Part shown: in pieces, positions 1 through 14,621 of the stretch | Layout: each line of letters starts with the position of its first letter | How positions within the stretch are numbered: the stretch's first letter is position 1 | DNA from: Sphingorhabdus rigui | GTDB taxonomy: Bacteria > Pseudomonadota > Alphaproteobacteria > Sphingomonadales > Sphingomonadaceae | Reading direction: 5' to 3' | DNA length: 64,000 bases | NCBI RefSeq assembly: GCF_014196595.1 | Contig: NZ_JACIEA010000002.1 | Location: forward strand, 136,291-200,290 | Notes under the pieces: generated by a model | Told to the model about the DNA's origin: nothing | Databases searched by the model: none | What the model saw: only the letters and a program-made list of their open reading frames with translations | Program-made: the position numbers and the translations under genes

Positions 1-436
1 CGATAAATTCCACCTTCCCGATAGTGCCATATTCGGGGTTTTTACTATTTGCGTAACAGCCGATATACGGTGCGACAGCAAACCTAGCGTTTTTGCCTCT
101 CATGCCTGCTACAATAGCATTTTCGAAAGCGGTTAGGTCAATTGTACGTTGTGGCAGATAAACCCCCACAACGGGGGAATTATGATCCAAGAGCATTTGA
201 AGAGCTATTGGACCAATGCCAACGTCGTCATCAATGCCTATGAAGGTATCGTAATCACCCTCCAAAAATTCGGCAGCAAGAATGTTCCGAGCCGCTGCTA
301 CCTCCGCATATGAGACCCACGAGAATTTATAGCGGATTGATCGACTGTTTAAAATGGTGGTTAAACGCATCAAAGTTGCAGCGGTTGCACATGATATGGT
401 GGCACGTACTGATGGAATACCAATTAAAACAGACAT
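1..436 (-). CDS. GT-A-like glycosyltransferase family protein (partial, runs off left edge)
   Basis: Open frame of 145 codons from ATG at 436 to the window edge, preceded by a good ribosome binding site (GGTGGGAG, 8 bases before ATG). The N-terminus begins MSVLIGIPSVRA. A later stretch, ARNILAAEFL followed by FIGIDDDVGIGP, resembles the nucleotide-sugar-binding core of GT-A family 2-like transferases, in which an acidic DxD-type motif (here IDDDVG, about residues 72-77) binds metal and nucleotide. Codon use is AT-richer than in the genes to the right, suggesting an acquired surface-polysaccharide or phage-type gene. The acceptor and sugar cannot be inferred, and the C-terminus is outside the window. 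Confidence 0.7.
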   Translation of the reverse strand, partial: MSVLIGIPSVRATISCATAATLMRLTTILNSRSIRYKFSWVSYAEVAAARNILAAEFLEGDYDTFIGIDDDVGIGPIALQMLLDHNSPVVGVYLPQRTIDLTAFENAIVAGMRGKNARFAVAPYIGCYANSKNPEYGTIGKVEFI

Positions 437-558
437 TTATTACTCCCACCTACATGACCGCAATCGTTCGATAATCAATGTGGATGCTAAATATCGAATT
501 TAACCGCCTGTAAATTACATATTGTCAAAATTGTTAACATTCCGAAGTTAAGCTGGAC

Positions 559-586
559 AAAACCAGCCCAAGCGAGGCCGGCTGGG
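559..586 (-). terminator. Probable intrinsic terminator of the valine operon
   Basis: Reading leftward, a stem CCAGCC (rc of 580-585) pairs with GGCTGG (rc of 563-568) and is followed by TTTTG. It lies about 30 bases after the stop of the enoyl-CoA hydratase gene. The stem is short (6 bp) with an 11-base loop. Confidence 0.45.
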
Positions 587-614
587 GAACCTTATCGCCA
601 ATAATCGGATAAAT

Positions 615-1388
615 TTATTTCCCCGTCCAGTTGCCAGGACGCTTTTCGACAAACGCAGCCATGCCTTCCTTCTGATCTTCCGTACCAAACAGTCCATGGA
701 ACAGGCGGCGTTCGAATATAACGCCTTGCTGCAATGTCGTTTCAAACGCGGCGTTGACCATTTCCTTGCAAGCGAGCGCAGCCAGTGGCGCCATCGCAGC
801 GATCGCGGTTGCGGTCTTCATCGCCTCATCCACCAGTTCAGCCGCTGGAACAACCTTCGCGACCAACCCAGAGCGTTCAGCCTCATGTGCGTCCATCATA
901 CGGCCCGTCAGGCACATTTCCATCGCCTTGGCCTTGCCAATCGCACGCGTTAGCCGTTGCGAACCGCCCATGCCGGGGGTGACCGCAAGTTTGATTTCAG
1001 GCTGCCCGAATTTTGCATTGTCGCCGGCAATGATAAAGTCGGCCATCATGGCAAGTTCGCATCCACCACCAAGCGCAAAGCCGTTCACGGCCGCAATCCA
1101 TGGCTTGCGTGTCGCGGTCACGCGATCATAGCCGGCGAAAAAGTTGTGGCCATACATGTCCGCAAAGGACTGGCTTTGCATTTCCTTAATGTCCGCGCCC
1201 GCAGCAAATGCCTTCTCGCTGCCAGTCACCACAGCACAACGTTGGCTGTCGTCGGCATCGAATGCAGCGAGGGCAGCAATGAGGTCCGCCAGAACCTGGC
1301 TGTTCAACGCGTTCAACGCCTGCGGACGATTGAGCGTGATTAAAGTCACCGCACCGCGTTGTTCGACCAATATCGTTTCGTAGCTCAT
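615..1388 (-). CDS. Enoyl-CoA hydratase
   Basis: Crotonase-fold protein of 257 aa. The oxyanion-hole segment AAGADIKEM (about 62-70) and the motifs [13 protein letters not shown] and FGQPEIKL carry both glutamates of classical hydratases (E111 and E131). It hydrates trans-2-enoyl-CoA; its place after an isobutyryl-CoA dehydrogenase and before a 3-hydroxyisobutyryl-CoA hydrolase activity points to methacrylyl-CoA in valine breakdown, though short-chain fatty enoyl-CoAs may also be used. I chose ATG at 1388 because it overlaps the upstream stop as ATGA; an in-frame ATG lies four codons earlier. Last gene of a three-gene operon. Confidence 0.93.
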
Positions 1389-2434
1389 AGCGGCTTCCAT
1401 TCTTCTTGAGCGGGTAATGGGGCAAAGATCGCATCGATGAGTGCGTCCGTAACGCCTTCAGCTGTCGCGGGATCCCATTTAGGGGCATTGTCTTTGTCGA
1501 CGATCACGGCCCGCACGCCTTCAGCGAAGTCAGGGCGCACAATCACGCGGCTGGCGATACGATATTCCATGGCCATGTTATCGGCAAAGTCAGTGAGCTT
1601 CAGGCTCTCCGACAATTGGCGTAATGCAACTTTACAGGTTTGTGGGCTTTTGGTCCGCAAAGTCGCGAGCTCTTTCATGGCCCATTCGCTTTCATCGCCT
1701 TCCAAGCTCGCGAGAATATCCTCTAGCCTATCAGACGCAAAATGGCGGTTGATCTGGACTATTGTCTCGATGATTTTGGAATCGGGCGGCGTTACCGACA
1801 AGGTTCCCAATATGCCGTCAATCCGTTCGACATCCTCGGTCGCGATCCGCGACTTCGCTTCGGCAAGAGCATTGCTCGTCAAATAATGTGTGGCCAGTCC
1901 AAGCGAGAGACAACCGGCCCCTGCGATACGCGATCCAGTTAACGCCAGAAACTGGCCAACACGTCCCTCAAGCCGCGAAAGATACCATCCGCCCCCGACA
2001 TCGGGAAACAAGCCAATGCCCGTTTCAGGCATGGCAAACTTTGTGTTCTCGGTCGCTACACGGAAACGCGCAGGCTGGCTGATGCCAACGCCGCCACCCA
2101 TCGTAATGCCGTCCATGAACGCCACAACAGGCTTGGGATAATTAATCAGCAAATGGTTGAGCTGATATTCGTCGTGGAAGAATTTACGCCCGGATTCGCC
2201 GCCATCATTCATGGCCGAATTGCGCAAAAAGGCGATGTCGCCACCGGCGCAAAAACCGCGCCCGTCGGCATGATCAATAACCACGCACTTCACCGCAGGA
2301 TCGTCCCGCCATTCCAGCAGGGCCGCAGTCATTGCATGCACCATCGGCAATGTCAGCGCGTGGAGCGCCGATGGCCGGTTCAAGCTAATGAAACCGGCAT
2401 GTCCTTCGACTTTTAGCAAAATATCATCGGTCAT
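1385..2434 (-). CDS. 3-hydroxyisobutyryl-CoA hydrolase
   Basis: Crotonase-superfamily protein of 349 aa, longer than a simple hydratase and of HIBCH length. Diagnostic motifs are FCAGGD (61-66), MGGGVGIS (112-119) and [14 protein letters not shown] (135-148), whose E137 and D145 match the thioesterase active site of HIBCH rather than the hydratase Glu pair. It releases 3-hydroxyisobutyrate from its CoA ester, avoiding accumulation of reactive methacrylyl-CoA. Start overlaps the end of the acyl-CoA dehydrogenase by 4 bases and its stop overlaps the hydratase start, so the three genes are translationally coupled. Confidence 0.92.
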
Positions 2435-3576
2435 TGGCGTAACAAATCCCGTCCGATAATCATACGCATGACCTGATTGGTCCCTTCCAAAATCGAATGT
2501 ACCCGCAAGTCGCGCCAGAAGCGCTCAATAGGATAATCGCGCAAATATCCATAGCCGCCGAAAAGCTGCAGCGCCTTGTTCACTATCTCGCTTCCGCTGT
2601 CTGTCGACAGTCGCTTCGCCATCGCGGAAAAGCGCGACTTGTCCGGTGCGTTTGCCGTGACCTTGGCCGCAGCGATGTAGAGCAACGCACGCGCGGCTTC
2701 CAAATCGGTGGCCATGTCGGCGAGCATGAATTGGGTATTCTGAAAATCGGCGACAGGTTGGCCAAATTGCTGACGCTCTTTGGTGTAAGCAATGGCTTCG
2801 TCGAGGCAACGTTGCGCACCGCCAAGCGAGCACGCACCGATGTTCAAGCGCCCGCCGTCCAAGCCCATCATCGCAAAGCGGAAACCATCCCCCTCTGCGC
2901 CCACGCGATTTGCAACCGGCACGCGGCAATCTTCAAATATCACTTGCGCCGTGGGCGAGGCATTCCAGCCAAGCTTTTTCTCTGGCGCGCCGAAGCTTAA
3001 GCCCGGCGTATCCTTATCGACCACAAGGCAGGTGACACCCTTGGTCTTTTCCTCGCCGGTGCGGACCATGACCACATAGACGTCATTATAACCCGCGCCG
3101 GAAATGAACTGCTTCGTGCCGTTTACGATATAATGGTCGCCATCGCGCCGCGCGCTTGTCTTCAGCGCTGCTGCGTCCGAACCGCTGCCGGGTTCCGTCA
3201 GGCAGTAGCTGGCGATTTTCTGCATCGACACAAGGTCGGGCAAATAACGCGCCTTAAGCTCCGCGCCGCCAAAGCAGTCGATCATCCACGCAGCCATATT
3301 ATGGATCGAAATGAAAGCACTTGTGGTGGGGCAGCCATAGGCCATCGCTTCCATGATCAGCGCCGCTTCCAACCGTCCAAGGCCAGTGCCACCCGATTCT
3401 TCGGACACGTAAATGGCGCCAAAGCCAAGTTCGCCCGCCGCTTTCCAGACATCGACCGGATAATGCGACTTTTCGTCCCATTCGGCTGCAAAGGGCGTAA
3501 TCGCGTCCGCGGTGAATTTGCGCGCCATATCTTGGATGGCGATCTGATCGTCCGTCAATTCAAATTGGTTTTGCAT
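2431..3576 (-). CDS. Isobutyryl-CoA dehydrogenase (acyl-CoA dehydrogenase family)
   Basis: Full-length acyl-CoA dehydrogenase of 381 aa. The FAD/acyl-CoA signature CLTEPGSGSDAA occurs near residue 130, and the C-terminal [19 protein letters not shown] contains the catalytic base glutamate (about E364). Family knowledge: alpha,beta-dehydrogenation of short branched acyl-CoA with electrons passed to ETF. The substrate isobutyryl-CoA is inferred from the two overlapping downstream genes, which carry out the next two valine-degradation steps. First gene of the operon; no clear promoter was recognised between it and the divergent tRNA-Arg. Confidence 0.9.
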   Translation of the reverse strand: MQNQFELTDDQIAIQDMARKFTADAITPFAAEWDEKSHYPVDVWKAAGELGFGAIYVSEESGGTGLGRLEAALIMEAMAYGCPTTSAFISIHNMAAWMIDCFGGAELKARYLPDLVSMQKIASYCLTEPGSGSDAAALKTSARRDGDHYIVNGTKQFISGAGYNDVYVVMVRTGEEKTKGVTCLVVDKDTPGLSFGAPEKKLGWNASPTAQVIFEDCRVPVANRVGAEGDGFRFAMMGLDGGRLNIGACSLGGAQRCLDEAIAYTKERQQFGQPVADFQNTQFMLADMATDLEAARALLYIAAAKVTANAPDKSRFSAMAKRLSTDSGSEIVNKALQLFGGYGYLRDYPIERFWRDLRVHSILEGTNQVMRMIIGRDLLRQ

Positions 3577-3771
3577 AACCTCGCCGTAGCATCGCGTTTT
3601 TCAGTTATCCAGCCAATAGCTTCGGGCAGCGCACATATCGCGTCACCGGGCAAATCGAAGGGCGCAGTGATGTGCTCTACCCGCCGTGAAACCGCGCCCT
3701 TCGTAAAAAAGTGGAGCTGCCCAAAAAAAACTTGGCGCGATGCCGCTCCGCCTGCTAACCGCACGCCATAA

Positions 3772-3848
3772 GCACCCATAGCTCAGCTGGATAGAGCGCT
3801 GCCCTCCGAAGGCAGAGGCCAGAGGTTCGAATCCTCTTGGGTGCGCCA
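3772..3848 (+). tRNA. tRNA-Arg (anticodon CCG)
   Basis: A 77-base cloverleaf: acceptor stem GCACCCA/TGGGTGC, D arm GCTC/GAGC, anticodon arm CTGCC-CTCCGAA-GGCAG with anticodon CCG, T arm AGAGG-TTCGAAT-CCTCT, discriminator G and an encoded 3' CCA. It lies at the left border of an AT-richer segment. Confidence 0.97.
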
Positions 3849-4358
3849 TTCAAAACATTGATATATAACAATATTTAAACGAAGCGATGTGCGAATTGCG
3901 GCTTAAATAGCGCATTTTAGCTATGCACAAATCATGCACAAATATCTGTGTTCATTCGCCAACTTCCTGATTAGGCTGAAAAAGTCGGAGGAATGCGGTT
4001 TATGGCTAATACCAAGCCGTGTTGATAGCAACTCACGCGCCCATTTACGTTGGCTGATGCTCAAAATTTTCCAAGGTTGAGGTGTAAATTTTTTCCACAC
4101 CTCACAGGACATGAAACCGCGTATCCTTCGCATTCAATTGCAAAGAACGGTCTATGCTTGGCCGTCTATGACGATCAGAATGGCTGGAAAGTCGCGGAGG
4201 TGTCAGAAATGCCGTTTGAATTGTAAATTCACCCCGATTTTCAGGGGATCGCATATCATGATTTACACGCTCCGCCGATGTAGCGAGGCGTCAAAACTCA
4301 AAGTTGTTTGCACGAATGCTTTGGTTTGATAGTGGCCCCCATCTCGGAGAATTTTTAA
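3849..4358. other. AT-rich intergenic stretch with possible gene remnant
   Basis: About 510 bases between tRNA-Arg and the response regulator gene. I see no convincing intact gene. It holds a direct repeat of ATGCACAAAT (about 3923-3932 and 3934-3943), a 48-codon ORF from 3934 with no recognisable motif, and a start-less open frame 4029-4226 that ends in a protein-like tail (GWKVAEVSEMPFEL). The region looks degenerate, as expected beside a tRNA that may have served as an integration site. No integrase was found. Confidence 0.4.
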
Positions 4359-5240
4359 ATGCCTACAAATAACGTTAACCAGAGTTCTGTTGCCGGTTTG
4401 CCTGACGCTGGTTGGACAGTCCTGGTTGTCGATGATGACCAAGATTGCTTGGACGAATATCGTGAAGCGGTATCTAATCTCGGATACGCTGTGAGATGTG
4501 CCGAAAGCACGCCGGCTGCTTTGTCGCAGATTTCGAAACATCCTGACATTGGTATCGTTTTAACCGACCTGAAAATGCCAGAAATGGATGGAAATACACT
4601 TCTGTCTGAGATTGCGATTAGATTTAAGCCGTATCGCCCAATTGTAACGTTAGTGACAACTGGTCATTCAAGCCTCGATGCCGCCGTTTTAGCGATGCAA
4701 TCACAAGCCTCAGATTTTCTTACAAAGCCTGTTTCAATGCCTGATCTGGCATCCGCTTTGCTTCGCGCCTCGGCAAAGCTGTCGACCGCAACCCCTTCCT
4801 ATCAATTAGCGGAACGTTTGAATAACTCCGCTTCGCGTGAAGATGCAAACCCCATTAGGGCGTCTTTACAGCGTGATGGCAAACCAAGCGAACGCGAGCT
4901 TCGCGCGTTCATCAAGCTGCTGTTCAAATATCACCACAACAAGGCACAGTTCTTCGATCCAGCGACCTTAACAGGGCCTTCATGGGAAATTTTGTTAGAT
5001 CTTGCCGAAGCCAGCCTGCGCGGAGAGCCAGTTCCTGCATCAAGCGCATCCGCGGCAACATTGGTGCCGTTGAGCACGGCATTGCGCCACGTGAACAATT
5101 TGGTTGAAGCAGGCTTGGTGCGCCGCTGGATCGACCCATCAGACAAGCGCAGGACCTTACTGGAACTTGAGCCAGAGGCAAAAGCCGCCATGCAGAGCTA
5201 TCTTGAAACGGCTTGGCAGTTTCAGCCTCAGCCTATCTAA
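4359..5240 (+). CDS. Response regulator with MarR-like winged-helix output domain
   Basis: Protein of 293 aa. The N-terminal receiver domain (about 18-135) has the acidic pair D25/D26, phospho-acceptor D70 in LTDLKMPEMDG, T100/T101 and K123 in FLTKPVS. A C-terminal region (about 165-290) resembles a MarR-type winged helix, with LSTALRHVNNLVEAGLVRR as the recognition-helix area and a DPSDKRRTLLEL wing. MarR-type output on a receiver is uncommon compared with OmpR, NarL or NtrC types. It is convergent with the H-NOX/kinase operon, making it the best candidate partner. RBS CGGAGAA lies just upstream of ATG. The domain call for the C-terminus is by pattern only. Confidence 0.8.
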   Translation: MPTNNVNQSSVAGLPDAGWTVLVVDDDQDCLDEYREAVSNLGYAVRCAESTPAALSQISKHPDIGIVLTDLKMPEMDGNTLLSEIAIRFKPYRPIVTLVTTGHSSLDAAVLAMQSQASDFLTKPVSMPDLASALLRASAKLSTATPSYQLAERLNNSASREDANPIRASLQRDGKPSERELRAFIKLLFKYHHNKAQFFDPATLTGPSWEILLDLAEASLRGEPVPASSASAATLVPLSTALRHVNNLVEAGLVRRWIDPSDKRRTLLELEPEAKAAMQSYLETAWQFQPQPI

Positions 5241-5438
5241 GGTTTCCTTCCATTGGGAGACCGAAGGCAACAGTGAAGACGCCAGCGATGCGATACACCG
5301 CAAAGCCACCGCACTGGCCGGTTTAAAGGCGACCAAGCGCGCGCTAATTGTCGATTTCCAATAACGCCGCCTCAGGCAACTGCAACAATTCAGGCCGCAT
5401 CGGCTTTCATCTAAAACATTCTATAAAAATCATATATT
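5241..5438. other. Convergent intergenic region between response regulator and hybrid kinase
   Basis: About 200 bases without a supported gene. The left half has coding-like base composition but no credible start; the right half is AT-rich. No clear hairpin terminator was identified. Confidence 0.3.
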
Positions 5439-7004
5439 TTACATAAGCTTGTCGATGAGACCAAGGAGTTCTGAGGACGCGAGCGGCTTTCGCATGAACA
5501 TCCAGCCAGGCTGTAACGCTGCCGTTTCCGGCACGTAGCCACTCATTAAGATGACCCGAATACCCGGCTGGGCAATACACGCCTTGCTTGCGAGCTCTGC
5601 TCCATCCTGCTGCGGCATTACAATGTCGGATAAAAGTAGGCGGTAAGAACGCTTTGCGAGCGCTTCGAGCGCCTGTGCGGCGGACAGACAGGGCGTAACA
5701 AAATATCCCTCCATCTCAAGCATTTCGACGAGGGCCTCAAGCGCATAAGGCTCATCTTCTACTAACAAAATGCTCCGCTCGTTTGGAACGGCGTCAACAG
5801 ACGCATCTTCAACAGACGGATCATCTGGACACATCATCGCGTCTAGGGCGATAGGGAAATGCAGAAATACCCTCGTGCCCTCACCAGGCGTTGACTCCAA
5901 CCATACATCGCCCCCCATTTCGACGGCGTACTCGCGCACCGAAGCCAGCCCCAGTCCCGTGCCGTTGGGTTTTGATGAAAAAAGCGGTTCAAAAGCGCGG
6001 GACAAAAGCGCTTCATTCATGCCGCTGCCGGTATCGGCGATTTCTATGGCGATATATTTGCACGGCGATGATTCTGGGGGGTCGTCCGTTTTATTAGCCA
6101 AGCCGTCTCTAACAGTCGTGGCAACGCTAATATGTCCCCCATCGGGCATCGCTTCGCGGGCATTTATCAGTAAGTTAATAATACAATTTAGTAACCCGTT
6201 GTAACTGAGAACGGCTTTGCATGAACCAGAGTGCAGCGTCATGCTTAGACCGACTTTCGAGCCGACAACCGTTTTCAAAAAAGCACTATTTTCGGTAATG
6301 ATATCATCAATTGAAAGCGCAGATAAGGTCTCTGAACTCTGGTGCGATAGAGCCATAAGGGACTGCGAGATTTCAGATCCCCTGGCAGCCGTATCACCAA
6401 TTATTTGTGTAAGATTTGCGATTTTGCCATCGGCACTGGGGGCCCGCGCGAGCCGCTCGGTATTTAAACTAATGATCGACAGAAGATTGTTAAAATCATG
6501 CGCCAAATAACCGGAGACGCGGCTGGTTCGTTCCAGCAGGGCCGAATATCTCTGTCGCTCATATGCCAGCTCTAATGCGGTATCTTGGGCTTCCTCCAAC
6601 ATAGCGCGCTGGACCGCAATCAACATAATTGCCTGTATTTCGGGGTCGGCATAACCGAAATCAGTCAGTTCAAGTTGTTGGCTTGCAAGATATTGACTGG
6701 TGGTAACGTGCCGCAGCGCCAAAAAATATCCATCAGGTTGCTGGCCGGCCAAACCATGCAACCTTAGGTTGCCGCACTTTGACGCAATCTCGATCGGGTG
6801 GTCAGGTCGCTCCTGAATGTCGCAAACCGTTGCAACGTCATTACTGATGACATCGAAATAATCATCAAATGCATGGCCGATTTGTAAACCGGGCAAAAGT
6901 TTGCGGATCGATGGCCCAGAGCCTGCCAAACGGAAGTTTTTGTCTAACAGGAGATATGCCGGAAACAGCTTGCCAAGCTGGGCATCTGTCAGCTGAACGA
7001 ACAT
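5439..7004 (-). CDS. HNOBA-containing hybrid histidine kinase
   Basis: Protein of 521 aa. Residues 1-110 resemble the HNOBA (haem-NO-binding-associated, PAS-like) domain of soluble guanylate cyclases, with FPAYLLLDKNFRLAGSG near the start. A coiled-coil signalling helix (about 123-160) follows, then a DHp helix with H169 in AHDFNNLLSI. The ATPase domain has N-box NLLINAREAM (N281), G1 DTGSGM (324-329), F-box FEPLFSSK and G2 GTGLGL. A C-terminal receiver has D417/E418, D460 in LLSDIVMP and K506. No membrane segment, so cytoplasmic. ATG at 7004 lies 1 base after the H-NOX stop; a longer in-frame start at 7073 overlaps H-NOX and is less likely. It should receive the haem signal from the H-NOX protein and phosphorylate itself or a regulator. 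Confidence 0.85.
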   Translation of the reverse strand: MFVQLTDAQLGKLFPAYLLLDKNFRLAGSGPSIRKLLPGLQIGHAFDDYFDVISNDVATVCDIQERPDHPIEIASKCGNLRLHGLAGQQPDGYFLALRHVTTSQYLASQQLELTDFGYADPEIQAIMLIAVQRAMLEEAQDTALELAYERQRYSALLERTSRVSGYLAHDFNNLLSIISLNTERLARAPSADGKIANLTQIIGDTAARGSEISQSLMALSHQSSETLSALSIDDIITENSAFLKTVVGSKVGLSMTLHSGSCKAVLSYNGLLNCIINLLINAREAMPDGGHISVATTVRDGLANKTDDPPESSPCKYIAIEIADTGSGMNEALLSRAFEPLFSSKPNGTGLGLASVREYAVEMGGDVWLESTPGEGTRVFLHFPIALDAMMCPDDPSVEDASVDAVPNERSILLVEDEPYALEALVEMLEMEGYFVTPCLSAAQALEALAKRSYRLLLSDIVMPQQDGAELASKACIAQPGIRVILMSGYVPETAALQPGWMFMRKPLASSELLGLIDKLM

Positions 7005-7005
7005 C

Positions 7006-7554
7006 TTATGCGTGGCCGTCTTTATAACGGATTTCGAAAACTGCGTTGCACGTAGCACTGTCGGCAATGGCAACTTCGCCGATCAAACCAAATCGCTCAA
7101 TCAGGCCATAAAAAAGCCCAGACACAAAATTTTCCAGTCCCGTCCTCTGGGAATGATATTCGACTTTTAAAAAGCCCGGTTCGCTAAGCACCACATTGAA
7201 ATTGGGTAATCGTGAACCCGGCATAGCCATGCCAACCGATAAATGAAGCCGATCAAGGTTCGAGATGAAGCTTACCAGATCATGCCCGGTTAAATCCATG
7301 GCTGAGGCCAACGAGCCTCGGGATGCATATTCGATCCAGTAGCGGCCAAATTCAAACAAACTCTCACTAGTGGTCAAATTTAGACGGGCCGCCGCTTCCG
7401 AGATAATCGCGATCGTCATCGTATCGTCGTACACCATACCGGTGAGCAACTCCGTCGGGCCGATCCCAATCTTCTGTTCCAATGCGAACCAGGCGTCTTC
7501 GCCCAGCTTGTCCTGTACCATGCTGCGAATGCCGCGGTGAATCATACCATACAT
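7006..7554 (-). CDS. H-NOX (haem nitric oxide/oxygen binding) sensor protein
   Basis: Stand-alone H-NOX domain of 182 aa, the usual length. It starts MYGMIHRGIRSMV, typical of the family. H104 in NLDRLHLSVGM fits the proximal haem ligand, P117 the conserved proline packed on haem, and Y133-H-S135-Q-R137 is the YxSxR motif holding the haem propionates. No tyrosine is evident in the expected distal-pocket position just after this motif, favouring NO over O2 selectivity (inference). The gene lies between a DHp-only protein and an HNOBA-hybrid kinase on the same strand, the classical H-NOX/kinase pairing. Start ATG at 7554 is preceded by GGGAAC. Confidence 0.9.
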   Translation of the reverse strand: MYGMIHRGIRSMVQDKLGEDAWFALEQKIGIGPTELLTGMVYDDTMTIAIISEAAARLNLTTSESLFEFGRYWIEYASRGSLASAMDLTGHDLVSFISNLDRLHLSVGMAMPGSRLPNFNVVLSEPGFLKVEYHSQRTGLENFVSGLFYGLIERFGLIGEVAIADSATCNAVFEIRYKDGHA

Positions 7555-7587
7555 TGATAGTTCCCAAATCTGCGGAGGTGCATCACA

Positions 7588-7803
7588 TCAACCGTTCAAA
7601 CTGCTGCGCAAATCGTCCAACAATGCCGATAACCGATCTACCTGTTCCTCAATTCTGAGGATCTTTTTATCGAGATAGGCCTTGTCACTTTCAACGTCAT
7701 TGAATGGGCGCGCGCGAATATTGCTACAACACAGACGGATAACGTTCATCGGTTGGGCCATGTCATGAAACCGCGTTTGATGGTCGATCGGCGACTTTTG
7801 CAT
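7588..7803 (-). CDS. Stand-alone histidine-kinase dimerisation (DHp/HisKA-like) domain protein
   Basis: Small protein of 71 aa. FHDMAQPMNVIRL (about 12-24) matches an H-box with H13, like the HD/HE-x-x-QP boxes of FixL-type kinases. The second half, ILRIEEQVDRLSALLDDLRSSL, looks like the second DHp helix. There is no catalytic ATPase domain in this frame or after it, so it cannot autophosphorylate alone. ATG at 7803 has RBS GGGGAA; an in-frame start 17 codons earlier is less supported. It heads the operon with H-NOX (33 bases downstream) and hybrid kinase. It may act as phosphotransfer or heterodimer partner, or be a remnant of a second kinase. Confidence 0.65.
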   Translation of the reverse strand: MQKSPIDHQTRFHDMAQPMNVIRLCCSNIRARPFNDVESDKAYLDKKILRIEEQVDRLSALLDDLRSSLNG

Positions 7804-8176
7804 TAGCGTTCCCCAATTTGTAAGCGTTTGCGGCCTTGCTCCATAACACGGCACCGCAAAAGTCCCGCCGGAGACGCACTCTTATAGAGCAGCGGCGACA
7901 GACTATTCAATTGAAAACAAATGTAATATTCTATTTAAAACAAATACTATTTGCCTATTTTATACGCTCTGAATTCGAACAGAACGAAGTTGAGCGCGCG
8001 TTGACCGCACGGCTCGATTGGCTTTTGTAGCGTCGTGTAAAGCGCCAGCCTTATCAACAAGCTGGCGCGCATAAACGATCGGTGCGCGCCATCGAATGGG
8101 CCAAGCGCACTCTCGTCAAACGCCCCTGCTATGCATTGAACAGCGGCAGCAACAATCCCGGGGCAGCCGTTGTAAT
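7804..8176. other. Intergenic region holding the H-NOX operon promoter
   Basis: About 370 bases between two leftward genes. The part at about 7905-7980 is strongly AT-rich and probably contains the promoter of the DHp/H-NOX/kinase operon, but I cannot assign -35/-10 boxes with confidence. A perfect hairpin occurs at 8042-8068. No gene is supported here. Confidence 0.4.
8042..8068 (-). terminator. Hairpin, probable terminator of the acyl-CoA dehydrogenase gene
   Basis: Perfect 8-bp inverted repeat GCGCCAGC (8042-8049) / GCTGGCGC (8061-8068) with an 11-base loop, about 110 bases after the leftward acyl-CoA dehydrogenase stop. The following T-run on the minus strand is weak (CTTTA). Confidence 0.4.
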
Positions 8177-9295
8177 TTACCCGAGCAACAACGGCGCAAG
8201 CTTTGCGCGTTGCCATGCAGCATCGCCGAATTGAGAAGCGTGGAATATCGCGGCACGGCGGTGTAACCCTGCATCGCAATCATGGGTAAAGCCAAAGCCA
8301 CCGTGGAACTGGATCGCGCGGTCGGCAGCAAAGCTGTAGGTCCCATCTGCGGCGGCTTTCGCCATCCGCACGGCGATTTCGCCCATCCCCTGATCGCTAA
8401 AACTGTTCGCGGCGCTGTACAAATGCGACCGCGCTTTTTCATAGTCGACATAAGCGTCCACGGTAGGGTGTTTGAGCGCCTGATACTCACCAATGATTTT
8501 GCCGAATTGTTTGCGCGTTTGCAGATAGCTGACGGTGTAATCGATCACGCTTTGCGCGCCGCCGCACATTTCGGCGCTCTGCAACAGGTTGGCGGCTTGC
8601 TCGACATGCGCCAATGTGGACGCAGCACGCGCGACGTCCAGCAATGCGGTGCTGGGTACCGACAGACCATCGAGTGACACCGCAAAGCTGCGTTTGGTTT
8701 CGTCAATGATGGACTCCCGGCGCAGACGGCCAGCGACATCATCTGCGGTCAAAGCAACAAGCGCTGGTTTTCCGTCCAGCATGACCGATGCGATAATGAC
8801 ATCCGCGCTTTGCGCCCAAAGCACAAACTGCTTTTCACCGGACAACAGGATGCTGTCGCCATCAAACTTGGCCGTCGCGGTGATGTTCAGCAGATCCCAG
8901 TCGCCATGCGCCTCGGATAGCGCGAGCGAACCAATGGCCCCTTCGGCAAGCTTTGGTAGCCATTCCGCGCGCTGCGCGTCTGTGCCGCCAGCGATGAGCG
9001 CCTGCGCAGCCAGCGTGGATGCGACCAACGGCGACGCCATCAAATGCCGCCCCATTTGTTCCACCACCGGCACGACTTCGGCCATGGTCAGTCCGACGCC
9101 ATTATGTGCTTCTGGAATAGCGATTGCCGTCCATCCCAAAGCCGCAACTTCAGCCCAGATGTCGGCGTCATAGCCAAGATCGCTTTCCATCAACTTGCGG
9201 ACGCGATCGATTGGCGATTTGTCACGACAAAAAGTCGTCGCCACATCCAGCAACTCAATCTGCTCTTCGCTATATCCTAAGCCAGGCATCTGCAT
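8177..9295 (-). CDS. Acyl-CoA dehydrogenase family protein
   Basis: Protein of 372 aa with acyl-CoA dehydrogenase architecture: N-terminal helical domain, middle beta domain (LALSEAHGDWD, about 118-128) and C-terminal helices with HGGFGFTHDCDAGLHRRA near the end. It lacks the C-terminal EGT catalytic glutamate seen in the dehydrogenase at 2431-3576, as in FadE-type proteins that work in heteromeric pairs; no partner lies beside it here. Start ATG at 9295 is supported by GAGGAGGG six bases upstream. Substrate unknown; probably a CoA ester of a fatty or steroid-like acid. Confidence 0.85.
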   Translation of the reverse strand: MQMPGLGYSEEQIELLDVATTFCRDKSPIDRVRKLMESDLGYDADIWAEVAALGWTAIAIPEAHNGVGLTMAEVVPVVEQMGRHLMASPLVASTLAAQALIAGGTDAQRAEWLPKLAEGAIGSLALSEAHGDWDLLNITATAKFDGDSILLSGEKQFVLWAQSADVIIASVMLDGKPALVALTADDVAGRLRRESIIDETKRSFAVSLDGLSVPSTALLDVARAASTLAHVEQAANLLQSAEMCGGAQSVIDYTVSYLQTRKQFGKIIGEYQALKHPTVDAYVDYEKARSHLYSAANSFSDQGMGEIAVRMAKAAADGTYSFAADRAIQFHGGFGFTHDCDAGLHRRAAIFHASQFGDAAWQRAKLAPLLLG

Positions 9296-9358
9296 GTCAT
9301 TCCCTCCTCGCGCCGTTACATCCTCTATGGCGCGAGGAGATGGACAAAATCAAGGCGA

Positions 9359-9376
9359 TTTAACCGACCAGTTAAA
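9359..9376. promoter_or_regulatory. Palindrome upstream of acyl-CoA dehydrogenase
   Basis: Inverted repeat with arms TTTAAC and GTTAAA and a 6-base centre CGACCA, located 64 bases before the ATG of the leftward acyl-CoA dehydrogenase and just after the PhoD stop. It has the size and symmetry of a TetR-type operator of acyl-CoA metabolism genes; the regulator is unknown. Confidence 0.35.
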
Positions 9377-9383
9377 CAGCGCC

Positions 9384-11009
9384 TTATGCCTGTTCGAGAA
9401 CTTTGCGGCCTGGGCGGACTTTCATTTTGTGGCCAGCCTTGGTGGCGAGGGACACATCCTTAATCGTCTGCATGAATACCCATTCGTTCGTCGCAGCCTG
9501 TGGCGTCAGCGCCAAGTGCATGTAGCCACGGTTGGATGTGTCCACCCAGCGCAATTCCTGTTTACTGCCTTCGAGCAGTCCGCGCGCCACAGTTGACGGG
9601 TCCGTCCCTTGCGTTGCGCTTTCAAAGCCGGGTGAAGACACGCTGTGGCCGCCAAATTCTACACCAGCGGGCTTGCCACCTTCGGGCAGGTCAAAAGCCC
9701 ATGCATTGTGGCTGTCGCCCGTGATCACGACAAGGTTGGCATCCGCGCGCTGCGCAGCGGTCAATATGCGTGAACGTGCCGCTGGGTATCCGCCCCAATT
9801 GTCGAGATTGTAAGGCAGGCCCGCCTTCGCCGCAGCGATGCCCTGACGCACAAAGTTACGTGTGCGTTCGGGCGCATCTTTCGGGAACCAGTCAATGGCG
9901 GATTCCGGGGTGTAATTATAGCCCATATTGGTACCCGACCCCAGGACAGTCCAGGTCGATGTGTTGCGGCCTATGCTGCGCGAAAGCCATGCTTCCTGTT
10001 CCGATCCAAACATGGTCATCGACGGATCTCGCCATGCGCCATCACGAAACTCGGCAAACGCCTTTGCCGGGTCTGCCGCGCGCATCAGGTCGCCATGAAA
10101 ATAGGGTTTTGAGCGCGCAACCGCTCGCGTGTCGGTGCGGTAATATGTCGCGAGGTCGCCGATGGCATATTCTTTCCACGGCTGTTCGCCGACGGGCAGC
10201 CATTCGCGCCACACCTGCATCGCTGCGTTGCGCCGCGCGCTCCAGTCACCTTCGTCTACGCTGTGGTTCTGCGCGCCGCCTTCCCAGCTGTCATTTGCCG
10301 TTTCATGATCATCGGTGTTCACGATCATCGGGAAATTGGCGTGCAGTGCCTGCAATTGCGGATCAGCCCGATAGCTGGAATAGCGCAAGCGATAATCCGC
10401 CAGCGTCAGGATTTCGTCAGCGGGGAAAAGGCGCGCCGCAAATTTCGCGCCGCCATCATAGCCACCGCGTCCATATTCATAGATATAGTCACCCATGTGC
10501 AGCACAAGGTCGATGTCCCTGCGTGCTGCCGCATGGCCATAAGCGTTGAATTCGCCAAAACCCAAGTTGGAGCATGAAAAAATTGCGATGTTGAAATTCG
10601 ACGTTTTGCCAACGGGCAATGTCTTCGTGCGTCCAACGGGCGATATGCTGCCGTCGGGGGCAATGAAGCGGAACCAGTGCCATTTGCCCGGCGCGAGATT
10701 ATCGACCGTAATCTTCACGGTGTGGTCGCGCCATGGACCTGTCACCATTTGGCCGCCGCCGGCTATCTTCGAAAAATCCTGGCTTTCGGAAATTTCGACG
10801 CGGACTTTGGATGGACCGCCGGTCGGGTTTACATAACGTGTCCACAACAGCACGGAGTCGGGGCCAGGCTCACCGCTGGCAACATTGTGCGTAAAACCGG
10901 TAAGGCCAAGCAGCGTTTGCGCCATGGCGGCTCCGCCCGGCAGCAATAAGCCGCCAATGCCAAAGCCAGCAGTTGCCAACAAATTGCGGCGATTGATAAA
11001 AAATGACAT
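9384..11009 (-). CDS. phoD: PhoD-like alkaline phosphatase/phosphodiesterase, Tat-exported
   Basis: Protein of 541 aa with a twin-arginine signal (NRRNLLATAG at 6-15, hydrophobic stretch, AMAQ cleavage region at about 28-31), so periplasmic or released. The PhoD core is visible: FSCSNLGFG, HMGDYIYEYG, NTDDHETANDSWEGG and ITGDSHNAWAF carry the metal-binding Asp, His and Asn residues. PhoD enzymes hydrolyse phosphomonoesters and diesters using Ca/Fe. RBS GGGGGAG precedes ATG. The neighbouring acyl-CoA dehydrogenase downstream is probably unrelated. No Pho box was recognised. Confidence 0.88.
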   Translation of the reverse strand: MSFFINRRNLLATAGFGIGGLLLPGGAAMAQTLLGLTGFTHNVASGEPGPDSVLLWTRYVNPTGGPSKVRVEISESQDFSKIAGGGQMVTGPWRDHTVKITVDNLAPGKWHWFRFIAPDGSISPVGRTKTLPVGKTSNFNIAIFSCSNLGFGEFNAYGHAAARRDIDLVLHMGDYIYEYGRGGYDGGAKFAARLFPADEILTLADYRLRYSSYRADPQLQALHANFPMIVNTDDHETANDSWEGGAQNHSVDEGDWSARRNAAMQVWREWLPVGEQPWKEYAIGDLATYYRTDTRAVARSKPYFHGDLMRAADPAKAFAEFRDGAWRDPSMTMFGSEQEAWLSRSIGRNTSTWTVLGSGTNMGYNYTPESAIDWFPKDAPERTRNFVRQGIAAAKAGLPYNLDNWGGYPAARSRILTAAQRADANLVVITGDSHNAWAFDLPEGGKPAGVEFGGHSVSSPGFESATQGTDPSTVARGLLEGSKQELRWVDTSNRGYMHLALTPQAATNEWVFMQTIKDVSLATKAGHKMKVRPGRKVLEQA

Positions 11010-11211
11010 CCCGTGCTCCCCCGATTCAATAATGTGTGTATCGCGCTAGACAGTTGCTGTTGCAACCGTGTGACATGAAATCCATTCATGCCCGTTGATG
11101 ATATATGAAGCGGTCACAGTTGCGTGCGCAGCGACCATAATTCGGGAAAGGCGCGCTTGGACACGATGCTGTTCAAATAACTGACACCCGCCATCCCGCA
11201 ACCTTACTGTT

Positions 11212-11808
11212 TCAAATGAAACTATCCACCCACTTTTCGGCCAGTGCCTCGGCTTCAGCAACACTGAACGGCGCGTTGCCCAAACTCAGTTCCAACCACA
11301 AGCCATCGACCAACGCCGTCAGCGCCACAGCGGCCAGCCGTGTATCCTTCGGCGCGTTGGGACAGGCGGATATCAGCCGTTCAATATCTTGCCGGTTTTC
11401 CGCGTACAGCTCATCATGGATTTGTCCGATTATCGGCGTCGTTCGCGACAGGCTCCAAAAGGCGAGCCATGTGGCGAGCAAAGCAGGGTCGGCAATGGGT
11501 TCACGAAAACTGGCGGTGATAAACCCCAGCAATCGCCCTCGCGGATCTGTTTCGGGAACCATAACAACGGCCGCGTGCATCGCTGCGGCAACGCGTGTCC
11601 CCGTCGTCCGATATGTTTCCGCGACGAGCGCATCAATTCCATCGAAATAATGCCGCAGCAATCCCGGTGACACGCCCGCTTCCAAGCAGATCGCACGTAC
11701 TGATACGCCCTGCGCTCCATGCGTTCCCAGACAGCGCGCACAGGCCGCGATTAAGGCGTCTCGGCGGGTATCAGCGCTTTCGCGGGTGAAGGCTTGTCGC
11801 GCGCTCAT
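11212..11808 (-). CDS. TetR/AcrR family regulator, BetI-like
   Basis: About 198 aa from ATG at 11808; an in-frame GTG at 11823 is the alternative and neither has a clear ribosome site. The N-terminal helix-turn-helix contains GAQGVSVRAICLEAGVSPG followed by LLRHYFDGIDALVAETY, typical of TetR. The C-terminal half (FREPIADPALLATWLAFWSL, VDGLWLELSLG) resembles the BetI-type ligand domain. Divergent from the Rieske gene, with a palindrome in the narrow gap, so it probably represses itself and the Rieske/FAD pair. Confidence 0.85.
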   Translation of the reverse strand: MSARQAFTRESADTRRDALIAACARCLGTHGAQGVSVRAICLEAGVSPGLLRHYFDGIDALVAETYRTTGTRVAAAMHAAVVMVPETDPRGRLLGFITASFREPIADPALLATWLAFWSLSRTTPIIGQIHDELYAENRQDIERLISACPNAPKDTRLAAVALTALVDGLWLELSLGNAPFSVAEAEALAEKWVDSFI

Positions 11809-11815
11809 CCAGTTG

Positions 11816-11831
11816 TTATACACTCGTATAA
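11816..11831. promoter_or_regulatory. Candidate TetR operator palindrome
   Basis: Perfect inverted repeat TTATAC-ACTC-GTATAA between the divergent TetR gene and the Rieske gene. It lies 8 bases upstream of the regulator ATG at 11808 and immediately before the Rieske ribosome site. Position and symmetry suit binding by the adjacent TetR dimer, blocking transcription in both directions. Confidence 0.5.
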
Positions 11832-11844
11832 TAAGGAGGGCAAG

Positions 11845-13005
11845 ATGTCCGAATCAGACCTGCACATTGAGCGTGACAATCTGGACGGCTGGAGCCTGCC
11901 AGCATGGACCTATAACGACCCTGAATTTGCAGCACTTGAGGTAGAACGGATTTTCCGTCCCTCATGGCAAGTCGTCTGCCATGTCAGCGATGTCGCAAAC
12001 AGTGGCGACTGGCATAGCCTCGATTATATTGGCGAAAGCGTCATCGTCGTGCGCGGGGCAGATCAGGTGTTGCGCGCCTTTACCAATGTCTGCCGTCACC
12101 GGGGCAGCCGCTTGGTCGATGGTTCGGGCGGATGCGCCAAGAAACTTGTGTGCCCTTATCATGCCTGGACCTATGATCTTGATGGGCGTCTGACGGGTGT
12201 TCCTGACAGCGCGTCCTACCCCACTTTGGACAAGGACAAAGCGGGTCTTGTGCCGGTCGACATGGAAATCTGGCGTGGCTTTGTTTTTGTCCGCCTGGAA
12301 AGCGGCGGCCCGTCGGTCTCCGACATGATGGCGCCCTATGAAGACCAAGTCGCACCGTATCGTTTTGAAGAACTCAGGGCGCTTGGCCGTGTGACGATGC
12401 GACCGCGCGATGTGAACTGGAAAAATGTCGGCGACAATTATTCCGATGGCCTTCACATTCCGGTGGCGCATCCCGGCCTCACGCGGCTGTTCGGCAAAAG
12501 CTACGGCATTGAGGCGGAGCCACATGTCGACCGCATGTGGGGCGACCTTGTTGACCGGCCATCGGCCAACTGGTCAGAGCGCGGGTATCAGAACCTGTTG
12601 CCGCCAGTGCCGCACCTGCCCGCCGCCAACCAGAAACGCTGGTTATATTTCAAACTGTGGCCATCGGTCGCGTTCGACATTTATCCCGATCAAGTCGATT
12701 TCATGCAATGGCTGCCAACTGGCCCCACCAGCTGTGTGATCCGCGAGATTAGCTACGTCTTACCTGATGACCGCCGCGAAATGCGCGCTGCACGCTATCT
12801 CAACTGGCGGATTAACCGCCAAGTAAATGCGGAGGATACCGCCCTCATCACCCGCGTGCAGCACGGCATGGCCAGCCAAAGCTTTTCCATGGGTCCGCTG
12901 TCCGACAAGGAAGTTTGCCTCAAAAGCTTCTGTCGCCAAATTCGCAATATCATTCCCGAAGCGCGCCTCGAACAACGCCCTGCGCAGGGCTGGAGCAAAA
13001 AATGA
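11845..13005 (+). CDS. Rieske aromatic-ring-hydroxylating oxygenase, alpha subunit
   Basis: Protein of 386 aa from ATG at 11845, which follows a strong AAGGAGG. The Rieske cluster ligands are C83, H85, C103 and H106 (CRHRGSRL and CPYHAW), and the mononuclear iron site is in NVGDNYSDGLHIPVAHPG with H204 and H209. Such subunits hydroxylate or demethylate aromatic or quaternary-amine substrates with electrons from a separate reductase. No reductase or beta subunit is adjacent; instead an FAD oxidoreductase gene overlaps by ATGA. Substrate unknown. Confidence 0.9.
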   Translation: MSESDLHIERDNLDGWSLPAWTYNDPEFAALEVERIFRPSWQVVCHVSDVANSGDWHSLDYIGESVIVVRGADQVLRAFTNVCRHRGSRLVDGSGGCAKKLVCPYHAWTYDLDGRLTGVPDSASYPTLDKDKAGLVPVDMEIWRGFVFVRLESGGPSVSDMMAPYEDQVAPYRFEELRALGRVTMRPRDVNWKNVGDNYSDGLHIPVAHPGLTRLFGKSYGIEAEPHVDRMWGDLVDRPSANWSERGYQNLLPPVPHLPAANQKRWLYFKLWPSVAFDIYPDQVDFMQWLPTGPTSCVIREISYVLPDDRREMRAARYLNWRINRQVNAEDTALITRVQHGMASQSFSMGPLSDKEVCLKSFCRQIRNIIPEARLEQRPAQGWSKK

Positions 13006-14621
13006 CACAAAAATATGACGCGCTCATCATTGGCGCTGGCCACAATGGCCTTGTCTGCGCCTTTTATCTGGCACGCGCTGGTCTAAAGGTCCGTATCGTC
13101 GAACGCCGTGATGTTGTGGGCGGCGCAGCCGTCACCGAAGAATTCCACCCCGGTTTCCGCAACTCGGTCGCAAGCTACACCGTCAGCCTGCTTCAGCCGA
13201 AGGTCATTTCGGACATGAAACTGGCCGACCATGGCTACCGTGTCATTGAACGCCCGATATCGAATTTCCTGCCGCAAGAAGATGGCGGCTATTTGAAACT
13301 GGGTGGCGGGCTTGAGCGCACGCAAGCCGAATTTGCGCGCTTTTCAAAACATGACGCCGCAGTCCTTCCCGAATATTATGATATGTTGGAAGGTGTTGCC
13401 GACGTCCTGCGCGATCTTGCGCTGAAATCGCCGCCCAATGTCGGTGACGGGCTGAAAACATTCATCGACGCTGCCGTGCAGGGACGCGGGCTGATGAAGC
13501 TCAACCTGTCGCAGCAACGTGACGTGCTTGAACTGTTCACAAAATCGGCACGCAGCTTCCTCGACAGCTGGTTCGAAAGCGAAGCGGTCAAGGCGGCGTT
13601 CGGTTTCGACGCGGTCGTCGGCAACTATGCCAGCCCGGATACGCCCGGCAGCGCCTATGTTTTGCTCCACCACGTCTTTGGCGAAGTGAACGGCAACAAG
13701 GGCGCATGGGGGCATAGCATTGGCGGCATGGGCGCGATTACGCAAATCATGGCGAAGGTGTGTGTTGCCCTTGGCGTGGAAATCAGCCTTGAAGCGCCTG
13801 TGTCCCGCGTGCTGGTCGATGGCGAAAAAGTGGCTGGCGTCCGCTTGGAAAGTGGCGAGGAAATTGTCGCCGATCGCGTGATCTCCAACGTTGGGCCCAA
13901 GCTGTTGTATGAACGCATGTTCGACGACGCCGACTTAAAACCCGAATTCAAACGCCGCGTAAAAGGGTTCAAGGCGGGCAGCGGTACATTCCGTATGAAT
14001 GTCGCGCTTTCAGAACTGCCCAAGTTTACGTGCTTGCCCGAACCCGGCGAACACCATCAATCGGGTATCATCATTGCGCCCACACTTGATTATATGGACC
14101 GCGCGTTTCTCGATGCAAAGCGCGATGGCTGGTCGCAAAAGCCGATTGTCGAGATGCTCATCCCGTCAATCATCGACGACAGCCTCGCGCCTGCGGGGCA
14201 ACATGTCGCAAGCCTGTTCTGCCAGCAATTTGCGCCAGAGCTTCCGGATAATGCCGATGGTTCCAAACGCGATTGGGATGCCGAAGAGGGCAAGGCAGCC
14301 GATGTCATCATCGACACTGTAGAGGCCTATGCACCGGGTTTCCGCGCATCCGTCCTTGGCCGGCAGATACTGAGCCCCAAGGGCCTCGAACGCAAATTCG
14401 GGCTTGTCGGCGGTGACATCATGCACGGCAATATGAGCCTCGACCAATTGTGGTCAGCACGCCCGATATTGGGCCATGGCGCGTATCGCGGACCGTTGAA
14501 GGGCCTGTATATGTGCGGTGCGGGCAGCCACCCCGGCGGCGGTGTTACCGGCGCTCCGGGCCATAATTGTGCAGCTGAAGTTCTGGCCGACAGAGGCATC
14601 CTGAAACGGATCTTCGGCTAA
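13002..14621 (+). CDS. FAD-dependent oxidoreductase, phytoene-desaturase/PYROXD2-like
   Basis: Protein of 539 aa from ATG at 13002, overlapping the Rieske stop as ATGA. A dinucleotide-binding fold opens it (DALIIGAGHNGLVCAFYLAR, then E and R of the ADP-ribose site, and RRDVVGGAAVTEE). The C-terminus LYMCGAGSHPGGGVTGAPGH is the FAD-binding end typical of phytoene-desaturase-like and PYROXD2-like enzymes. These perform flavin-dependent desaturation or oxidation. Translational coupling with the Rieske protein suggests consecutive steps on one substrate, which I cannot name. A long upstream in-frame extension is inside the Rieske gene and is rejected. Confidence 0.85.
   Translation: MTQKYDALIIGAGHNGLVCAFYLARAGLKVRIVERRDVVGGAAVTEEFHPGFRNSVASYTVSLLQPKVISDMKLADHGYRVIERPISNFLPQEDGGYLKLGGGLERTQAEFARFSKHDAAVLPEYYDMLEGVADVLRDLALKSPPNVGDGLKTFIDAAVQGRGLMKLNLSQQRDVLELFTKSARSFLDSWFESEAVKAAFGFDAVVGNYASPDTPGSAYVLLHHVFGEVNGNKGAWGHSIGGMGAITQIMAKVCVALGVEISLEAPVSRVLVDGEKVAGVRLESGEEIVADRVISNVGPKLLYERMFDDADLKPEFKRRVKGFKAGSGTFRMNVALSELPKFTCLPEPGEHHQSGIIIAPTLDYMDRAFLDAKRDGWSQKPIVEMLIPSIIDDSLAPAGQHVASLFCQQFAPELPDNADGSKRDWDAEEGKAADVIIDTVEAYAPGFRASVLGRQILSPKGLERKFGLVGGDIMHGNMSLDQLWSARPILGHGAYRGPLKGLYMCGAGSHPGGGVTGAPGHNCAAEVLADRGILKRIFG

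Follow-up and report, generated by a model that had tools for sequence, protein, structure and literature searches.

What can a protein do that consists of a dimerization and histidine-phosphotransfer (DHp) helix pair and little else, and why does it stand at the head of a haem-sensor operon? The question is raised by positions 4,359 to 7,803 of a 64,000 nt stretch of Sphingorhabdus rigui DNA (contig NZ_JACIEA010000002.1, positions 136,291 to 200,290 of the forward strand), called the window below. A preliminary description made from the letters alone had placed there a split H-NOX signalling locus of four genes, and the coordinates of the open reading frames (ORFs) confirmed all four (Table 1). 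On the minus strand the genes for the DHp-only protein, the H-NOX protein and a hybrid histidine kinase follow each other in operon-like order, with 33 bases between the DHp-only stop and the H-NOX start and, as had been reported, one base between the H-NOX stop and the kinase start; on the plus strand a gene for a response regulator with a receiver and a MarR-like part (receiver-MarR) is convergent, 198 bases from the kinase. An alternative GTG start upstream of the DHp-only gene would lengthen its ORF to 7854. With little more than even confidence, we lean towards the answer that the locus encodes an H-NOX-controlled four-step phosphorelay, in which the DHp-only protein would be the histidine phosphotransferase between the kinase receiver and the receiver-MarR regulator.

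The small protein leading the operon had been described as a DHp helix pair, and both its predicted model and its family bear this out. The model (mean pLDDT 88) shows two helices, residues 8-31 and 38-70, that form a hairpin. HisKA scored 22.3 bits on the window protein, under the cut-off of 26.9; it was matched at E<=1 by 16 of the 17 aligned members (best 6.9e-8) and was the sole family matched by most of them. At E<=1 neither the window protein nor any of the 17 matched the Pfam family Hpt; their alignment (A1) holds 17 of the 18 distinct rows then known, with L033 omitted as near-identical. Of 22 copies, 21 have the predicted phospho-histidine, H13 (those of 18 of the 19 genus genomes and those of G190, G230 and contig L037), and Gln at H+4 and Pro at H+5 are present in all 22. 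The residue at H+1 is Asp or Glu in 20 of the 22, Ala in G020 and Gln in G030; loss of the acid in two copies suits a histidine fed by a receiver, as an acid is expected for ATP-driven phosphorylation.

The H-NOX protein matched the HNOB profile at 1.5e-32 (113.2 bits against a curated cut-off of 25.5), and both marks by which it had been recognized, H104 (codon 7243-7245) and Y133-x-S-x-R, were located. Among its PDB matches is Alr2278 (3.1e-28), where H104 aligns with the His of the LHARVG stretch, which we take to be the haem ligand; H104 is then presumably the proximal haem histidine, and the roles of H104 and Y-x-S-x-R are likewise assumed here. The fifth and sixth positions past the Arg of the latter motif are Asn and Phe, not Tyr (counted along the protein, not mapped onto an O2-binding H-NOX). 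For H-NOX proteins without a Tyr at such a position, structural work argues for binding of nitric oxide (NO) rather than O2; thus, the protein may bind NO.

The kinase had been said to open with an HNOBA-like domain followed by a coiled coil and to end in DHp, ATPase and receiver, the module order of soluble guanylate cyclase as far as the sensor part is concerned. The rear part is clear: Pfam gave HATPase (2.3e-20, with ATPase motifs starting at N277, D324 and G348) and receiver (1.1e-13, with D460 and K506), and although HisKA reached only 20.1 bits, under its cut-off of 26.9, an H-D-F-N-N box is present at H169. No Hpt match was found in the kinase with Pfam. Likeness of the N-terminus to HNOBA had been chosen beforehand as a point to be checked. 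The Pfam HNOBA model scored 12.6 bits on the whole kinase and 17.1 bits on its first 160 residues, both under the cut-off of 23.4, and was matched at E<=1 by 6 of 13 orthologues (best 4e-4). A profile of these 13 (alignment A2, 13 of 18 rows; omitted were L031 for a frame error, L033 and L056 as near-duplicates, L049 as truncated and L058 as frameshifted) had five matches at E<=10 among 177,635 PDB sequences, the best at E 0.016, which is weak alone; three were guanylate-cyclase beta-1 and two the histidine-kinase PAS domain 2P04/2P08. With the AlphaFold model of residues 1-160 (mean pLDDT 77) as Foldseek query, 22 of 22 chains at E<=1e-3 were guanylate cyclase or the H-NOXA domain of the Nostoc signal-transduction histidine kinase (STHK), and ordinary PAS domains ranked after them. 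Fold and profile matches therefore agree with the described module order, and we speak of a predicted HNOBA-like PAS fold, no more than HNOBA-like because the Pfam score stays under its cut-off. The model also shows a long helix at residues 121-159, which probably forms the coiled coil that had been described.

The regulator's receiver (Response_reg, 9.8e-21, with predicted phospho-Asp D70 at codon 4566-4568, and K123) and its convergent orientation were as described. Its MarR part was less plain in the window, where MarR_2 reached 22.0 bits against a cut-off of 27, HTH_20 scored equally well and all MarR-type matches stayed under their cut-offs. MarR_2 and MarR were matched at E<=0.01 by 12 of 12 aligned C-termini (alignment A3, 12 rows, with L033, L056 and later-found rows omitted), and a profile of the C-terminal part had 15 PDB matches at E<=0.01, all of them named transcriptional or MarR-type regulators and mostly MarR.

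Linkage of the four genes was assessed in 45 genomes of the genus, the window's own included. We observed 24 HNOB matches in 22 of them. Seventeen of the matched genes, in 17 genomes, were of the window type (phmmer E<1e-30 to the window H-NOX), and every one had the DHp-only gene directly upstream and the kinase gene directly downstream (with G027, where the kinase is split in two ORFs, and G028, where H-NOX has an internal stop, counted as carriers, and the kinase of G044 running off the contig); near the remaining seven, no DHp-only match was found in the examined stretch. The DHp-only protein was present in 19 genomes (E<1e-30) and receiver-MarR in 19 (in one, G035, as a fragment and with no DHp-only protein), 18 being common to both. 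In the 19 genomes with DHp-only the regulator lay within 10 kb in 15, at ~15-16 kb on the same contig in G001 and G044, and on another contig in G040; none was found in G034. Fisher's test gave ~2e-10 for DHp-only both with receiver-MarR and with H-NOX, values inflated by relatedness. Outside the genus the whole cassette occurs in G190 and on contig L037, there with the regulator divergent, as it also is in G030. The proposed co-occurrence of the genes is thus borne out, and chance is excluded because the gene order recurs in 17 of the 45 genomes and in two other lineages and because the DHp-only gene is under purifying selection, with a ratio of non-synonymous to synonymous substitution rates (dN/dS) of 0.06-0.39 across 17 chosen pairs (in two of which silent sites are close to saturation). 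Further searches with the DHp profile covered samples of 296 genomes of the order (limit 1e-3), 397 of the family (1e-7) and 289 of the class (1e-6); apart from the genus, G190 and the small copy of G230 (a 163-aa frame), they matched only open frames of at least 256 aa.

Other H-NOX genes of the genus or family (L065, L066, L067, L068, L071) adjoin receiver-sigma54 regulators (Pfam on L065 and L071; L066-L068 by matching N-termini). In a further type in the genus (L051, L057, L062) a GGDEF-EAL protein comes next (identified with Pfam in L051 and by position and length in L057 and L062).

The description of the locus as an H-NOX system holds, with a correction: the link of the DHp-only protein to receiver-MarR is no looser than its link to H-NOX. 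In G007 and G024 the two genes are convergent, 33 and 10 bp apart, and in G230, from another genus, the DHp-only gene lies beside two lone receivers, ~8 kb from receiver-MarR. No HNOB match was found in any of these three genomes, and since they keep the pair, its tie is not to H-NOX only. In the regulator tree G024 groups with G008 and G015 at 99/97 and G007 falls in another supported clade, with G035, some forks being open; given that the two sit in different supported clades among cassette carriers, H-NOX and kinase were likely lost twice. We give an even chance to a wider reading, in which the 71-aa protein would be a minimal single-domain phosphotransferase, a lasting partner of receiver-MarR that can be plugged into different upstream receivers, namely that of the H-NOX hybrid kinase in most carriers and the lone receivers in G230.

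How might the relay run? The haem sensor probably controls the kinase; as a separate protein, H-NOX would dock on the HNOBA-like domain and set kinase activity according to NO. The kinase would first phosphorylate its own H169, and D460 in the kinase receiver would be next. From there the phosphate would go to H13 of the DHp-only protein, which presumably forms a dimer of helical hairpins and probably hands the phosphate on to the gene regulator, where arrival at D70 would change transcription. The NO-responsive phosphorelay with three phospho-acceptor proteins that had been proposed fits these predicted sites, four in number on three proteins, along which phosphate would pass. By analogy with studied H-NOX/kinase pairs, NO would most likely turn the kinase off; we expect NO to lower phosphorylation of receiver-MarR because in Vibrio parahaemolyticus HqsK acts as a kinase when NO is absent (PMC8738867).

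The need for a carrier is suggested by the kinase itself. Published work describes the receivers of hybrid kinases as shuttles that move phosphate between DHp or Hpt partners (PMC9981736), and this kinase has a receiver and no Hpt match. The Hyphomonadaceae contig L038 provides a counterpart: H-NOX is followed by an HNOBA-HisKA-HATPase kinase (HNOBA 27.8 bits, over the cut-off) in which no receiver was matched, and no DHp-only match was found in the 12.5-kb locus.

The DHp-only protein would have descended from a full kinase of receiver-MarR by loss of every domain except DHp. Longer proteins whose DHp is similar to the DHp-only protein were examined in 20 neighbourhoods (L100-L103 and the 16 loci L141-L156; L100 and L103 hold orthologues of one gene, and other weak DHp-profile matches were left aside). 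A receiver-MarR gene was present in four: it adjoins a 408-aa kinase in G117, shares the neighbourhood of a 376-aa kinase in G347 and of a 932-aa kinase in G719, and in G249 is convergent with a 790-aa kinase, in the vicinity of an H-NOX and of a short hybrid kinase in which HNOBA was not matched. Near the regulator, G117 and G230 have in common a dCache kinase and two paired receivers, to which a full kinase is added in G117 and the DHp-only protein in G230. The simplest history would be that a regulator-specific kinase lost all but its DHp. Possible steps seem to be kept in related genomes: the full kinase beside the regulator (G117, G347, G249), the stripped DHp near the regulator (G230), the stripped DHp inside an H-NOX cassette (the window) and cassettes without sensor and kinase (G007, G024). 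If this order is right, build-up and take-down of a phosphorelay could be tested directly with small proteins.

As a source within the window's own genome we considered G000:C1:719865, the kinase with the most similar DHp there (36.8 bits); it was rejected, being outscored by G640 (53.4 bits) and by the regulator-linked kinase of G347 (52.2 bits). This PAS kinase (L100:3461-6579) lies beside a lone receiver; kinases of its kind may be partners of the DHp-only protein or may share ancestry with it only.

Several observations weigh against the relay and the history proposed for its carrier. Foldseek with the DHp-only hairpin put two light-sensor/FixL kinase chimeras at the top but found nothing at E<=1e-3, and when a profile of the protein was run against the PDB, designed coiled coils outranked kinases, although a short hairpin allows such matches. 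The DHp-only protein of G006 (L036:5752-5985) has Gln (CAA) for the His, with H-NOX, kinase and regulator kept. G034 has the other three genes and no detectable receiver-MarR. In G007, G024 and G230 there is no H-NOX-linked kinase to feed the DHp-only protein, so that another donor or another role is needed. No receiver-MarR was found in the examined stretch of some of the closest longer relatives (G640, G808, G855, G589). Finally, the genus genomes are related, and the co-occurrence counts are not independent observations.

The pair kept in G007, G024 and G230, and the Gln copy of G006, which could still bind the receiver, speak for the DHp-only protein being a dedicated phosphatase or phosphate sink of receiver-MarR, the regulator being phosphorylated directly by the kinase or by others; isolated DHp domains, such as that of EnvZ, can keep phosphatase activity. 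We regard this main rival as unlikely, though worth serious attention. It gives no account of the His kept in 21 of 22 copies, and a phosphotransferase is normally required where a hybrid kinase ends in a receiver and has no Hpt; no other candidate for this part was seen in the cassette.

Weak structural matches bring in another possibility, that the DHp-only protein binds some other kinase, either by pairing with its DHp, in the way RetS pairs with GacS, or by blocking it, in the way Sda blocks KinA. The RetS-GacS DHp complex is among the Foldseek matches, though at no better than E 2.6 and 3.2. Also, a long protein with a similar DHp (E<=1e-6) was found in 8 of 19 genus genomes with DHp-only and in 0 of 26 without (Fisher 3.5e-4), an association that may reflect shared ancestry or the score threshold. 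Kinase inhibitors do exist, Sda and KipI among them (PMC12189002). Still, the DHp of the cassette kinase is of another subtype (H-D-F-N-N against H-x-x-x-Q-P) and conservation of the His would be needless, and we judge a binding role rather improbable, below that of a phosphatase.

Lastly, the loss of His in G006 and the window's HisKA score under the cut-off could be signs of a decaying remnant, with the kinase signalling straight to receiver-MarR. The low dN/dS, the 14 invariant columns among 17 sequences and the presence of the protein where the neighbouring kinase is absent make this very improbable.

The phosphotransferase favoured here has known analogues. Spo0B keeps a degenerate ATPase-like domain. 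PhyT, ChpT and Spo0B are described as kinase-derived phosphotransferases in which the DHp takes up phosphate from a receiver and passes it to a response regulator, with a degenerate ATPase-like domain kept in PhyT (PMC5898713); ChpT is likened to a kinase (PMC3433190). The DHp-only protein would act like these three and differs from them in keeping not even that degenerate second domain, since its 71 aa end after the second helix of the hairpin; as this domain is gone, we do not file it as a member of their group and regard it only as working alike.

HnoX/HnoK of Shewanella and Vibrio are H-NOX/histidine-kinase pairs, and LuxU is an Hpt protein. In soluble guanylate cyclase a coiled coil follows HNOBA/PAS, and its beta-1 chain has H-NOX and HNOBA/PAS in the order seen here, whereas in the window they are split between two polypeptides, with a hybrid kinase in place of the cyclase as output. 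HNOB and HNOBA were reportedly defined in a paper of 2003. For the kinase N-terminus, the closest solved non-cyclase fold is the PAS (H-NOXA) domain of the Nostoc punctiforme STHK (2P04/2P08), also an HNOBA/H-NOXA of a histidine kinase, the likeness being one of the PAS domain alone. The arrangement of H-NOX and HNOBA-kinase is thus already known, from Nostoc and L038. In the Vibrio relays, HqsK passes phosphate to LuxU and HahK probably passes it to the phosphotransferase domain of SypF (PMC8738867). As in the window, a stand-alone H-NOX accompanies the kinase. Their carriers are LuxU and a SypF domain, whereas the candidate carrier in the window is a DHp hairpin from the H-NOX operon, combined with an HNOBA-like kinase N-terminus and with receiver-MarR as output. 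The new part is the stripped DHp carrier, which looks unusual, and its bond to receiver-MarR; our literature search for stand-alone DHp proteins found no DHp-only phosphotransferase, and absence from print is not claimed. If the proposal is true, relay and specificity would need no more than the hairpin, as such a natural DHp-only carrier would show, and H-NOX signalling would gain a receiver-MarR output.

What the regulator controls may be hinted at by its neighbours. At E<=1e-30 receiver-MarR is rare, being found in 10 of 196 order genomes, 4 of them from this genus. A search of 38 upstream stretches for 5-base inverted repeats gave a best motif in 5 of the 38, among close relatives, and no shared operator is claimed. 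Matches to an animal-type haem peroxidase were found in 6 of 52 searched genomes (a sample that includes seven added for being of interest here), and five of the six carry receiver-MarR; within the genus, 3 of 19 receiver-MarR carriers against 1 of 26 others had such a match, which is no association by itself. In G001 and G040 an RTX-peroxidase ORF is divergent from the DHp-only gene with ~0.4-0.6 kb between; in G044, which is close to G001, the distance to the match is 1.2 kb, in G243 the match adjoins receiver-MarR and in G249 it is ~24 kb away. HlyD, ABC and outer-membrane genes stand between peroxidase and receiver-MarR in G001, and G044 has the same ORFs; G243 has an ABC exporter gene nearby, and a gene for outer-membrane efflux lies close to the L037 cassette. 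These neighbourhoods suggest that an RTX peroxidase with its exporter may have been the ancestral output of the signalling system, ancestral only, as the window's genome has no animal-type haem peroxidase match.

Table 1. Features of the H-NOX locus (window coordinates) and of related loci (locus coordinates)
Feature	Position	Strand	Remark
Receiver-MarR-like response regulator	4359..5240	+	293 aa
Hybrid histidine kinase: HNOBA-like PAS, long helix, DHp, ATPase, receiver	5439..7004	-	521 aa from ATG
D460 codon, predicted phospho-Asp of kinase receiver	5625..5627	-	orthologue alignment
H169 codon, predicted autophosphorylated His of kinase (H-D-F-N-N box)	6498..6500	-	orthologue alignment
Long helix, kinase residues 121-159	6528..6644	-	predicted model
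HNOBA-like (H-NOXA-like) PAS domain, ~kinase residues 1-120	6645..7004	-	model and Foldseek
H-NOX (HNOB) haem protein	7006..7554	-	182 aa
DHp-only protein	7588..7803	-	71 aa from ATG
H13 codon, predicted phospho-His of DHp-only protein	7765-7767	-	H-D-x-x-Q-P box
Second MarR-like protein upstream of DHp-only	L032, L033, L034, L035, L036, L041, L056, L058, L161, L162		
RTX proteins with animal-type haem peroxidase domain, and exporter genes	L031:1-5163, L047:1-5596, L137:1-4563, L140, L165		

Of the 19 genus genomes with DHp-only, 10 have upstream of it a second MarR-like protein, without a receiver and homologous to the C-terminus of the regulator. In G021 the contig ends where its gene would lie, and no match to it was found in window positions 1-14000. 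In G040 multicopper oxidase and SCO1-like genes precede the regulator (L164:614-3496, Pfam), and in G001 ORFs similar in appearance follow the kinase (L047:9461-12342; Pfam on L164 only).

A search of a plasmid collection with the H-NOX protein gave a single remote match (22% identity) and no sign of plasmid carriage there. The G+C content of the four-gene set is 0.48-0.51, lower than that of the window (0.56). A tRNA-Arg (ccg) gene lies at window positions 3772-3848, ~0.5 kb from the receiver-MarR gene, and at 26036-28619 genes that by eye resemble a cobalamin-type ABC uptake system come after a TonB receptor.

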